A stretch of 64,000 nt of DNA from Salsipaludibacter albus (GTDB lineage Bacteria; Actinomycetota; Nitriliruptoria; Nitriliruptorales; Nitriliruptoraceae): assembly GCF_019798055.1 (NCBI RefSeq), contig NZ_JAHOPH010000001.1, positions 1 through 64,000 of the forward strand. Reading direction: 5' to 3'. Below the pieces are notes generated by a model that was given only the letters and a program-made list of their open reading frames with translations, ran no database searches and had not been told where the DNA came from. Positions within the stretch are counted from its first letter, which is position 1, and the number at the start of each line of letters is the position of its first letter. This document shows, one piece after another, positions 12,116 through 54,440 of the stretch. Made by a program: the position numbers and the translations under genes.

Positions 12116-12147
12116 CCCCTCCAGGCCCCGGCCGGTCCCACCAGGCC

Positions 12148-12199
12148 CGTCGAGTGTGCGCATCGAGGCCACGGACGGCCGGGAACAGCACACTCGACG
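12148..12199. repeat. 52-bp inverted-repeat element, copy A
   Basis: Arms CGTCGAGTGTGC (12148-12159) and GCACACTCGACG (12188-12199) flank 28 bases. Copies B (13423) and C (54389) have the same 12-bp arms and exactly the same total length, but a different 28-base centre. Copy A sits between the stops of two convergent genes, six bases after the DUF3037 stop. It could be a terminator, a REP-like element, or one end of the cassette at 12.2-13.4 kb. Confidence 0.85.
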
Positions 12200-12205
12200 C
12201 GGGGT

Positions 12206-12595
12206 TCAGGCCACCAGGTCGGTGAACAGGCGCTCGAGCTCGGCCAGGGGATCGTCGGTGAGGCCGGTGTGGATCGGGCTGGGCTGCACCATCGCGCTGC
12301 GCGGTGCGGCCAACCATCGGAACCTCGCACCGGGCGGCCCGGCCGCGGCCGGGATGGCCGGATCCTGCTCGCCCTCGGTGACTCGCCGCACGGCCTCCAG
12401 TGCCGCGGCGACCCCCGCCAGGTCGACGTCGGGGTCGAGCGCGCGGACCCGGTCGGGGTCGACGGCGAGTCTCCCGCCGAACCAGTCCGCGGCACCGCAG
12501 TGCAGGAGCACCCCGACGTTGACGAACTCGCCACGATCGACCCGGGGCACGACCCGCACGACCACGTACTCGTAGGGCACCGGCGTCCCGATCAT
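12206..12595 (-). CDS. DUF3037 family protein
   Basis: 129 aa. It matches the DUF3037 pattern: YEYVVVRVVPRVDRGEFVNVGVLLHC near the N-terminus, a helical middle (PDRVRALDPDVDLAGVAAALEAVRRV) and an SPIHTGLTDDPLAELERLFTDLV end. The biochemical function of the family is unknown. ATG 12595 overlaps the stop of the upstream HipA-like kinase gene (ATGA, 12595-12592), so the two are made together; DUF3037 genes commonly sit beside HipA-like kinase genes. The pair is bracketed by 52-bp repeats A and B. Confidence 0.85.
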   Translation of the reverse strand: MIGTPVPYEYVVVRVVPRVDRGEFVNVGVLLHCGAADWFGGRLAVDPDRVRALDPDVDLAGVAAALEAVRRVTEGEQDPAIPAAAGPPGARFRWLAAPRSAMVQPSPIHTGLTDDPLAELERLFTDLVA

Positions 12596-13383
12596 CGCCC
12601 GACCTCCCCCGTGGGCGCGCGGCTCGGTCGCCACGGCTCCCGCTCGGCGAGCCGCGCGGCCAGCACCTCGACGTGACGCGCGCGGGCACGCTCGACCTCG
12701 TCCGGACCCTCCAGGTCGTCCAGCCACGCGGTCGGGACGTCCGCCAGCACGTCGTGGAGCACCCCCGGGTCGACCCGCGTCGCCAGGGCCTGGTCCACGG
12801 CGGCGAGGTCGGCGTCGGCGAGGTCGGCGGTGAACGGGGCCAGGACGTGGTCGGACAGCTCGAGGCGTCGCGTCGCCGCCCCCGACGCGGGTGGCCACTG
12901 GTGTTGCCAGACCAGCGCAGCACCGTGGTCGATCAGCCACAGGTCGCCGTGCCACACCAGCAGGTTCGGGTTCCGCCACGTGCGATCCACGTTGACGGTC
13001 AACGCGTCCAACCACATGACCCGGGCAGCCTCCAGCGGGTCCACGTCGAACCCGGCGGGCTCGAACCCGACCGACCCGGGAAGCCAGTCCACACCGAGGT
13101 TGGTGCCGGCACTGGACACGAGCAGGTGCTGGATCTCGGGGTCGGGCTCGAGGCGGCCGATGCCCGGGTCGAGTTCGAGGGCGACCAGGTCCGGCACCCG
13201 CAGCCCCAGTCGGCGGGCGAGACCCGCCACGACGACCTCGGCCACCAGCGCGGCCGGTCCCTGGCCAGCCCCACGGAACTTGGCGACGTAGGTGCCGAGG
13301 TCGGTCGCCTCGACGATGCCGGGCAACGACCCGCCCTCGCGCAACGGCGTGGTGTACCGGGTGGCGTCGACGGTGGGGAGCAT
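12592..13383 (-). CDS. HipA-like kinase family protein
   Basis: 263 aa. Kinase-like elements of the HipA type are present: a candidate ATP-binding Lys in YVAKFRG (K35), a helical Glu near AEVVVAGLARRLG, a catalytic loop NVDRTWRNPNLL (D133, N138/N140) and a metal-binding DHG in LIDHGAAL (D152). It is far shorter than E. coli HipA (~440 aa), lacks the N-terminal subdomain that binds HipB, and no HipB-like antitoxin gene is adjacent. Instead it is coupled to a DUF3037 gene. A Ser/Thr kinase role is plausible; the target is unknown. Confidence 0.8.
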   Translation of the reverse strand: MLPTVDATRYTTPLREGGSLPGIVEATDLGTYVAKFRGAGQGPAALVAEVVVAGLARRLGLRVPDLVALELDPGIGRLEPDPEIQHLLVSSAGTNLGVDWLPGSVGFEPAGFDVDPLEAARVMWLDALTVNVDRTWRNPNLLVWHGDLWLIDHGAALVWQHQWPPASGAATRRLELSDHVLAPFTADLADADLAAVDQALATRVDPGVLHDVLADVPTAWLDDLEGPDEVERARARHVEVLAARLAEREPWRPSRAPTGEVGR

Positions 13384-13422
13384 GCCCGCGATCCTAGGGT
13401 GCACGCCACGTGGCCCCATCCC

Positions 13423-13474
13423 CGTCGAGTGTGCGGATCGCTGCAGCCCGCGGGAGCGGGACGCACACTCGACG
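13423..13474. repeat. 52-bp inverted-repeat element, copy B
   Basis: Arms CGTCGAGTGTGCG and CGCACACTCGACG (13 bp; the 12-bp core is shared with copies A and C). Its 28-base centre contains a second small hairpin, CCCGC-GGGA-GCGGG. It lies 36 bases past the stop of the copper-operon cytochrome gene and 39 bases before the HipA-like kinase start, so it separates the two transcription units. Confidence 0.85.
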
Positions 13475-13510
13475 GTCAGGCGGACGGCTCACTCGAGGAG
13501 GCCGGCGGGG

Positions 13511-13888
13511 TCACTCCATCAGGCCGGCGCGGCGCTGCTCGTCGCGGACGTGGGCGACGACGGCCGCGACCTCGTCGTCGGACAGGCCCCCGATGGCCGG
13601 CATCGGTCCGAAGTCCCAGTGGTGCGCCTGCACCCCGTTGGCGATGGCCGTCGCGAACACCACGTCGGGATGGTGGTCCGGCAGGTAGTACTCGTGCAGC
13701 AGGGGCGGACCGCGGTCGGTGCCACCCAGGTCCGGGCCGTGGCAGGTGGCGCAGTTCGCCGCGAACACGCGCGCACCGACGTCGTCGCGGTCGGCCGGTG
13801 CGGCGGCGTCCGTGCCACAGGCGGCGAGCACCAAGGTCGCCACGAGCGCCACCGGGCCGGCGACACGGGTGGTCGTCGCGCCCCTCAC
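13511..13888 (-). CDS. c-type cytochrome lipoprotein
   Basis: 125 aa from GTG 13888, which overlaps the copB stop by four bases. A lipoprotein signal (VALVATLVLAAC, Cys24 lipidated) is followed by one heme-binding CATCH (C46, C49, H50) and a distal Met ligand in GPMPAIGG (M96). This is a small mono-heme class I cytochrome held at the outer face of the membrane. As the last gene of a copper-export operon it may carry electrons or help copper oxidation outside the cell; a role in copper handling is inference from position only. Confidence 0.85.
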   Translation of the reverse strand: MRGATTTRVAGPVALVATLVLAACGTDAAAPADRDDVGARVFAANCATCHGPDLGGTDRGPPLLHEYYLPDHHPDVVFATAIANGVQAHHWDFGPMPAIGGLSDDEVAAVVAHVRDEQRRAGLME

Positions 13889-16047
13889 GCGGTGCCCGCC
13901 GGACTCGGACGCCGAGCGGCCGTCGCGGGCTCGCAATCGTCGGGACGGTGGTCACCCGCTGGGCGTTCGCCGTCGCCGGGTCCGCCGTCACCGGGTCCGG
14001 CCACCTCGTCCGGGTCGAGGTCGACCCGACGGAGCAGTTGCGCGTTGGCCGCGACGATGATCGTGGACAGGCTCATGAGGATCGCCCCGACCGCCGGGGG
14101 CAGCACGAACCTGATCGGGGCGAGCACCCCTGCGGCCAGCGGCACGGCGATCACGTTGTAGCCGGCTGCCCAGGCGAGGTTCTGCTGCATCTTGCGGTAC
14201 GAGGCGGCCGACAGGCGCCGCACGACCGCGACGTTGCGGGGGTCGTCGGAGGCCAGCACGATGTGTGCCGACGCGGCCGCCACGTCGGTGCCGGCCCCGA
14301 TCGCGAGCCCGACGTCGGCCCGGGCCAGCGCCGGGGCGTCGTTGACCCCGTCCCCGACCATCGCCACGGTGGCGCCATCGTCCTGGAGGTCGGCGACCAG
14401 GCGCTCCTTGTCCTCGGGCAGGACCTGGGCGTGGACCTCGTCGATGCCCAGCGCGTCGGCGACGTGGTCGGCGACCTGCGGTGCGTCGCCGGTGGCCATG
14501 ACCACGCGGATCCCGGCGTCGTGCAGGCCCGCGACGGCACTCGCCGACACGTCCCGGATCGTGTCCTCCAGCGCGAGGGCGGCGACCACCTGCTCGTCGA
14601 CGACCAGGTGCAGGACCGCCGCGCCGCGGTCCCGCCACCCGTCCGTGACCTCGCCCAGTTCGCGGGTCCCGGCGCTGTCCGCCAGCGACTCCTCGTCGAG
14701 CAGGGACGGCCCACCGACGGCGACGCGCCGGCCGTCGACCTGCGCGGCCACACCGCGGCCGGCGATGGACCGGAAGTCGCCGGCCTCCGGGACGGCGATC
14801 CCGGCGTCGGCGGCAGCCGCCACGATCGCGCGGGCCAGGGGGTGCTCGGAGTCCGACTCGACGGCCGCGGCCAGGGCGAGCGCCTCGTCGTCGTCCCACC
14901 CGTCGACCACGACCCGGTCCGTGACCCGGTGGTCGCCGGCGGTCAGCGTGCCGGTCTTGTCGAACAGGACGGTGTCGACCTGGCGCATCCGTTCGAGGGC
15001 CAGCCGGTCGCGGACCAGGATCCCGCGTCGGGCGGCCATGGCCGTGGACAACGACACCACCAAGGGGATGGCCAGTCCCAGCGCGTGGGGACACGCGATC
15101 ACCAGGACCGTCACCGTGCGGGTCACGGCCTGGTCCGGCTGGCCCAGCAGGAGCCACACCACGGCGGTCACGAGCGCGGCGATCGAGGCGTACCAGAACA
15201 GGGCCGCCGCGGCCCGGTCGGCCAGCACCTGGGTGCGCGACCGGGAGGTCTGGGCCTCCTGGACCATCGCCTGGATGCCGGCCAGCGTCGTGTCGTCACC
15301 GGTCGCGGTCACCTCCACCCGGACGGCGGAGCCGGCAGCGACCGACCCGGCCACCAGCTCGTCGCCGGGACCGTGGGCGACCGGCGCGGACTCGCCGGTC
15401 AGCATCGACTCGTCGAACTCCGCCTCGCCGTCGACGATCGTGCCGTCGGCCGGGACGGCCGCGCCGGGGCGGACCAGCACGACGTCACCGGCCGACAACT
15501 CCGACGCCGCGACCGTGCGGGTGCCGTCGTCGGTGACCAACTCGGCCTCGTCGGGCAGCAGCTCGGCGAGGCTGTCCAGCGCCGACTGGGCCTGCCCGAT
15601 CGCCTTCATCTCCTGCCAGTGGCCCAGCAGCATGATGACGATCAGCCCGGCGAGCTCCCACCAGAACTCGAGGTCGAGGACCCCGAACTCGCTGAGCCAC
15701 GACGCGACGAAGGCGACGGTGATGGCCATGCCGATCAGGGCCATCATCCCGGGCGAGCGATCCCGCAGCTCGCGCCAGCCGGAGGTCAGGAAGACCCGTC
15801 CCCCGTCCAGGAACAGGATCGTGCCGAGGACCGGCCCGACGGCATCGACCAGGACGTTGTCGGGCAGCTCGACCCCGAACCACATCCAGATCATCCGCGA
15901 CGTCAGGATGATGGGGATCGCGAGCCACAGCGAGCGCACGAACTGCCGACGGAACATCTCGGCGTGGTCGCCGTGGCCACCGCCGTGGCCACCGGCGTCG
16001 TCATGGTCGGCGTGCTCGTCATGGGAGTGGTGGTCGTTCGGAGTCAT
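13885..16047 (-). CDS. copB: Copper/silver-exporting P1B-type ATPase, CPH subtype
   Basis: 720 aa. A His/Asp-rich N-terminus ([23 protein letters not shown]) replaces a Cys-type metal domain. P-type ATPase hallmarks are present: TGES, the transmembrane CPH in [20 protein letters not shown] with the phosphorylated Asp, and [11 protein letters not shown] with a His-rich tail is the CopB subtype (P1B-3; Cu(II)/Ag export), different from the CPC enzyme upstream. ATG 16047 overlaps the copA stop (ATGA). Expression should follow the CsoR-controlled copZ promoter. Confidence 0.9.
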
Positions 16048-54388: not shown

Positions 54389-54440
54389 CGTCGAGTGTGC
54401 TGCGCGCGGCCACGTGCGGCCGCGAAGCGCACACTCGACG
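54389..54440. repeat. 52-bp inverted-repeat element, copy C
   Basis: Same 12-bp arms as copies A and B, extended to ACGTCGAGTGTGC/GCACACTCGACGT. The 28-base centre holds a second perfect stem CGCGGCC/GGCCGCG. It lies eight bases downstream of the kgd stop and 24 bases before the aminotransferase start. Confidence 0.85.

Follow-up and report, generated by a model that had tools for sequence, protein, structure and literature searches.

What does a HipA-like kinase do when the gene that overlaps its own encodes a DUF3037 protein, and when no HipB gene stands beside the two? The question is raised by a gene pair in the window, which is the whole stretch of 64,000 nucleotides of Salsipaludibacter albus DNA analyzed here. 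A sequence-only reading of these letters had suggested a toxin-like module in which DUF3037 might neutralize or direct the kinase, and had held the function of such a pair to be undescribed. The latter view has been wrong since 2025, when longer relatives were described, according to the parts of two reports drawn on here (PMC12548924, PMC13092281). The window pair is probably, although by no means certainly, a short form of this “HipAD” kind of kinase-inhibitor pair.

The overlapping genes and their products

Pfam recognizes the kinase as HipA_2 (PF20613, E=3.5e-9, 36.7 bits against a 27-bit cut-off) and its partner as DUF3037 (PF11236, E=6e-39). PADLOC matches the kinase to PDC-M66A (1.4e-19) and DUF3037 to PDC-M66B (1.2e-9), the latter over positions 4-128 of 281 only; NCBIfam matches neither protein. 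Each has one match in the whole S. albus genome. The open reading frames, the two Pfam families, and the shared ATGA bear out the overlap that the sequence-only reading had seen (Table 1), and this overlap presumably couples the translation of the two genes. Its view that DUF3037 is the only partner also stands. On one side of the pair lies a cytochrome c gene, on the other a convergent MFS/spermidine-synthase gene; no HipB-like gene adjoins the pair (Pfam and NCBIfam place the neighboring genes in other families), and no profile match to HipB was obtained.

Table 1. Features of the window and their positions
Feature	Position	Strand	Basis or remark
Kinase gene, HipA_2-type, 263 aa	12592..13383	(-)	ORF, Pfam, PADLOC, alignment, AlphaFold2 model
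DUF3037 gene, 129 aa from ATG	12206..12595	(-)	ORF, Pfam, PADLOC; protein ends with the DUF domain
ATGA overlap	12592..12595	(-)	Kinase stop TGA and DUF3037 start ATG
3.9-kb segment (palindrome, DUF3037, kinase, palindrome, cytochrome c, first Cu-type P-ATPase)	12116..16043		Absent in same-genus genome G029
Cytochrome c gene and His-rich Cu-type P-ATPase	13511-16047		Same accessory segment; missing at the G029 site
50-bp palindrome	12149..12198		Separates DUF3037 from the convergent MFS/spermidine synthase gene
50-bp palindrome, same family	13424..13473		Separates the cytochrome c gene from the kinase start
50-bp palindrome, same family	54390-54439		

The kinase carries a Gly-rich loop, REGGSLP. 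Thirteen residues (R15, E16, G17, G18, S19, K35, E49, D133, R134, N138, N140, D152, and H153) are invariant in all 28 aligned actinobacterial kinases; the roles of the motifs, Gly-rich loop and catalytic residues alike, we take from general knowledge of kinases. K35, E49, D133, R134, N140, and D152 are also retained in five distant long-form kinases. Lys35, Asp133, and Asp152 had been picked out correctly from the sequence, together with an Asn that is either N138 or N140. Here, N140 is the better candidate, because all five long-form kinases have it, while three have N138. The window kinase is 61% identical to that of Actinomycetospora over 241 columns, and 41% identical to that of Bacteroides finegoldii.

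An AlphaFold2 model of the kinase, built from a 28-row alignment (pLDDT 89.1, pTM 0.88), finds its closest fold in CtkA (3akk_A; Z 16.2, rmsd 3.3, 212 aligned). PI4K II comes second (8a5x; Z 14.1, rmsd 4.0, 224 aligned), followed by CotH (5jd9; Z 13.0, rmsd 3.9, 226 aligned), Legionella HipT (8ezs_B; Z 12.3, rmsd 3.8, 192 aligned), Shewanella HipA (4pu4_B; Z 11.8, rmsd 3.4, 188 aligned), and E. coli HipA (2wiu_C; Z 11.5, rmsd 3.8, 191 aligned). Z values as middling as these show a common kinase arrangement; they are not, of course, evidence of function. The HipA chains align to the model only from about chain residue 125-152 onward. This, in turn, means that HipA N-subdomain 1 is missing, as the sequence-only reading had said of the HipB-binding part. 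The model thus suggests a minimal PI4K/HipA-like kinase fold without that subdomain. Profile comparison detected no relation between the kinase and E. coli HipA.

The DUF3037 partner was modeled with confidence from a 31-row alignment (pLDDT 93.9); the model has three strands, then helices in its middle part, a pair of short strands, and a helix at the end. Against the PDB, Foldseek returned nothing at E 0.001 (best 0.51), VIA gave a best Z of only 3.2 (7ktr_C, rmsd 4.5, 67 aligned), and sequence searches, including one with the DUF3037 profile, gave nothing convincing. The lack of a convincing fold relative in Foldseek and VIA is not, of course, proof of a new fold. Profile comparison detected no relation of DUF3037 to HipA or HipB; for E. 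coli HipA this was a single-sequence comparison, which is a weak test.

Short and long forms

The published relatives are long forms. In Retron-Sda1, as described in the part of PMC12548924 used here, removing the kinase cost the system its defense against Bas51, removing DUF3037 was toxic, and the RT and ncRNA could be dispensed with. The sections of PMC13092281 that bear on DS-6 report that it loses defense when a predicted catalytic residue is mutated, and rename it HipAD, after Brenes and Laub (2025). There, AlphaFold3 predicts that its A and B proteins bind (ipTM 0.76-0.79). The B protein joins DUF3037 to DUF1829, and its contacts with DNA are predicted more weakly than those with A.

The record of the Escherichia phage PhiR5_1 labels its own pair “HipA toxin” and “HipD antitoxin.” A profile of 28 short kinases matches the former (E=4.5e-11, 192 columns), the short DUF3037 profile matches residues 4-126 of the 275 in the latter (E=2.1e-6), and PhiR5_1 HipD itself matches PDC-M66B at positions 6-271. 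The window proteins are only 21% (kinase) and 20% (DUF3037) identical to the PhiR5_1 pair, so their function may have changed.

The long-form set assembled here has five members: PhiR5_1, a Sulfurimonas phage, one Vibrio plasmid, and two Pseudomonas plasmids. Their partner proteins have 248-280 amino acids. In a DUF3037 tree of 34 rows, a 99/99 branch splits these five from 29 short forms, the window's among them. A 100/100 branch of the kinase tree sets off four of the five; the Sulfurimonas phage row, on a very long branch, falls among the short forms, a placement marked as unsure in a tree where long-branch joins may be false.

The two forms also differ within the domain that they share. 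Y10, P17, E23, N26, G28, L66, and F92 of DUF3037 are common to at least four of the five long forms. Conversely, R21, R91, A97, S100, H109, and G111 occur in at least 90% of the 29 short proteins and in none of the five long forms, which have Q104 in one case and P98 in two. The motif of the short class reads RFxWLxAPRSTVxQPxxVHTG. The window DUF3037, with 129 amino acids against about 250-280, lacks the C-terminal half of HipD. Because that half was tested for and is absent, the window pair is not a full member of HipAD; judged by sequence, it is a class apart from the mobile long form.

Where the pair is found

Relatives were gathered by a kinase-profile search of genome contigs, which gave at least 596 pattern stretches and at least 591 relatives; the best 80 were kept, and are by record title 59 Streptomyces and 21 others. 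As the search was made with the kinase, DUF3037 was not a condition for entering the set. All 80 of these named relatives (the best 80 of at least 591) have DUF3037 in frame with a four-base overlap, which is GTGA in 52, ATGA in 25, and TTGA in three. With the in-frame NTGA overlap in every one of the 80, the arrangement is not chance. The DUF3037 proteins of the same 80 have 122-153 amino acids and no C-terminal extension.

A similar picture comes from family f15, whose first-sample membership was read from the genome numbering. The kinase is present in 28 of its 39 genomes. Of the 38 searched with both models, 27 have both genes, nine have neither, and two have one only; these two (G180 and G365) are cut at contig ends, and no genuine kinase-only or DUF-only relative was found. 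One genome (G273) has two copies of the pair, on contigs C88 and C108.

DUF3037 matches were found in 56 of 396 genomes drawn across the phylum, in one of 36 in the window's order, and in one of 35 in its family. In genus g49, 76 of 81 genomes have it, with a single match each. This genus, with genomes of 5.5-12.1 Mb, is presumably Streptomyces. Seventeen of its matching genomes are single contigs, and in these the median distance from the gene to the nearer end is 1.03 Mb (by rounded lengths).

Downstream of the pair, the best 80 of at least 591 relatives share several gene families, whose names we take from the sequences themselves: an SDR oxidoreductase-like gene at 56 loci (about +1.6 kb), a substrate-binding protein gene at 42 (+3.1 kb), a uracil-DNA-glycosylase-like gene at 51 (about +4.8 kb), and an Lnt-like gene at 32 (+8.2 kb). 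These counts, nearly all from Streptomyces loci, are lower bounds because the gene calls are crude (a GC-position filter); one clustered family, at offset +701 on the minus strand, is possibly an artifact of calling the reverse strand. Outside Streptomyces the neighbors are different, and 84 neighbor proteins from 15 of the 21 loci concerned are mostly metabolic. PADLOC, run on the 84 with no control set, gave six matches to a TAP-like hydrolase, two to mad2, and one each to many PD-T4-6 models, all generic-looking by family; the single PD-T4-6 matches fit one Ser/Thr kinase. No obvious defense island was seen around these 15 loci.

Among 50,697 phage records there is no match to either window protein, and of the 23 pattern stretches that the DUF3037 profile found in viral contigs, not one was confirmed. 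Among 72,556 plasmid records, DUF3037 has six matches and the kinase five. Two records in the plasmid collection look like chromosomes (NZ_LT559118.1, 11.9 Mb; NZ_CP119140.1, 2.2 Mb), the first of them evidently so and among the matches just given, so plasmid counts slightly overstate mobility. Bacteroides queries reached the long forms: the DUF query matched 21 plasmid records, long and short together, and the kinase query two phage records. In many actinobacteria, the pair looks resident rather than mobile.

One plasmid of Streptomyces globosus (NZ_CP030864.1, L136:8031-9172) has a short pair inside a polyketide-type gene region, adjoining ccrA and a phosphopantetheinyl transferase gene.

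The pair is kept together across Actinomycetota, and it occurs in Bacteroidota too. Two short-form pairs fetched from the latter have 127-residue partners and kinases about 41% identical to the window's; they adjoin ordinary metabolic genes. Bacteroides ihuae gave the one match among 14 control genomes. The open-licence literature naming DUF3037 has, in the portions available, nothing on the actinobacterial pair, and resident distribution in one genus was not found in open-licence literature.

In the family to which the window belongs, the two genes are accessory and rare (one of 35 genomes). In G029, a genome of the same genus, orthologs of the spermidine synthase (81%) and of the second Cu-ATPase (76%) are convergent neighbors about 100 bases apart (L155, 4296 and 4396); the window has 3.9 kb between the same orthologs. 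As far as this one genome shows, either the window's lineage acquired the segment or G029 lost it. Four other family members also have the synthase gene, but the stretches read, one of them a short contig, contain no other query gene.

The palindromes in Table 1 follow the pattern GTCGAGTGTGC-N28-GCACACTCGAC with a second inner stem, and are always exactly 50 bp. With exact arms, the pattern occurs 28 times in the S. albus genome and four times in G029, and is absent from another 33 genomes of the family; a backwards control pattern gave no matches. Three copies have RNA fold z values of -4.5 to -5.1. Of 15 of the 28 copies placed with a crude coding filter, four lie between convergent genes, one between divergent genes, and the rest are same-strand or undecided; six of the 15 overlap a coding-like stop-to-stop frame. 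The simple reading of the palindromes as mobile-element ends of the pair is rejected, as the 28 copies are spread across the genome. They look like a REP- or terminator-type repeat.

What the pair may do

By analogy with the long form, DUF3037 is most likely an inhibitor that binds the kinase, much as HipD acts on HipA, although it has no counterpart to the DNA-binding half of HipD. Translational coupling would give about equal amounts of the two proteins; DUF3037 would bind the kinase and hold it off; and the loss or modification of DUF3037 would free the kinase to phosphorylate a target, probably translational, and so to slow growth. In Streptomyces and other actinobacteria, the pair would have settled as a single-copy chromosomal resident. 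Lacking the predicted DNA-binding half of HipD, the short DUF3037 should not repress its own promoter. The short form thereby separates the role of the DUF3037 domain, which would be to restrain the kinase, from that of the extra half of HipD, which probably binds DNA.

The proposal that DUF3037 neutralizes the kinase, in a defense pair, has published support for the long-form relatives, but does not transfer directly to the short form. For the window pair, “defense pair” is not established, because the C-terminal half of HipD is missing and because the class is mostly chromosomal. Further, a toxin-antitoxin or defense system is not usually carried by nearly every genome of one genus, in single copy and in synteny, and this counts against the kinase-inhibitor reading itself.

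The pair may instead serve physiological signaling, with DUF3037 not as an antitoxin but as the kinase's activator, sensor, or substrate adaptor. Of 81 genomes in one genus, 76 have a single copy; the kinase is present in 28 of 39 f15 genomes; and the neighbors are fixed in named Streptomyces. All this favors a signaling role. So does the strongly conserved polar motif of DUF3037 (R91, A97, S100, Q104, H109, and G111), which is mostly missing from the long form and exceeds the needs of a plain plug, as well as the modeled kinase, whose best structural neighbors are CtkA and then PI4K II, not HipA. However, the toxicity of losing the long-form DUF3037, in the part of PMC12548924 cited above, favors restraint, and we regard a signaling role of this kind as rather unlikely.

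A more ambitious proposal is possible, and we hold it tentatively. Actinobacteria would keep the short pair as a resident signaling module that is inherited vertically and is nearly universal in Streptomyces. DUF3037, whose fold is unmatched in the PDB searches, would be dedicated to regulating the kinase and would have a conserved motif of its own for binding a ligand or the kinase. The phage-borne HipAD defense systems would have branched off, becoming mobile and acquiring a DNA-binding half, or descent would have run the other way. If the pair is near-core in Streptomyces, a genetically tractable antibiotic producer would be at hand for work on the target and the regulator of the kinase. 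Tools that give the PDC-M66 “defense” label to all such pairs would then over-call.

Those labels do favor a working anti-phage toxin-antitoxin module like HipAD, in which phage infection would release the kinase and halt the growth of the infected cell. So do homology to pairs tested in defense, occurrence in one of 35 family genomes, and absence of the segment from the same-genus genome, as expected of accessory defense genes. We nevertheless consider it unlikely. The phage records (0 of 50,697), viral stretches (0 of 23), and plasmid records (six and five of 72,556) speak against it, as do near-core carriage in one genus, the missing half of HipD, commonest neighbor families that belong to ordinary metabolism (84 neighbors, 15 of 21 non-Streptomyces loci), and the single generic PADLOC match among the window's four neighbors.

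That the pair has decayed and is inactive in this genome is very improbable: it is rare in the family, and E108, R173, and H237 deviate at nearly invariant kinase positions, but both frames, all invariant catalytic residues, and the overlap are intact.

Preferring the kinase-inhibitor reading, how does the pair compare with known systems? The closest solved fold to the window kinase is CtkA of Helicobacter pylori, but identity is 14% over the alignment, and a shared fold shows no function. HipBA shares the HipA-superfamily kinase fold; the window pair differs in lacking HipB and N-subdomain 1, and profile comparison matches it to neither HipA nor HipB of E. coli. The ten Hip gene organizations of Gerdes (2021) appear not to cover the pair, as “DUF” is absent from that article's main text (PMC8262856); the available part of PMC9600765 has HipA in its reference list only.

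HipBST is similar in part. Its HipT is likewise a kinase core that lacks HipA N-subdomain 1, has a Ser in the Gly-rich loop, and is paired with a separate small protein. In the portion of PMC10627512 concerned, this protein, HipS, is a detached HipA N-subdomain 1 that wedges a Trp near the Gly-rich loop of HipT and inhibits it, and the loop serines matter for toxicity. The window pair differs in lacking HipB, and Foldseek, VIA, and a single-sequence profile, together a weak test, detected no link between DUF3037 and HipS.

HipAD (DS-6; PADLOC PDC-M66; PhiR5_1 HipA/HipD and Retron-Sda1) has the same order, a HipA_2 kinase followed by an overlapping DUF3037 gene, the same K35, E49, D133, N140, and D152, and detectable homology in both proteins. 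It differs in its partner, since the HipD-type proteins of five loci have 248-280 amino acids and that of the window, at 129, stops at the DUF domain. It may differ also in where it lives: the long forms were found on phages and plasmids, whereas the short form is mostly chromosomal.
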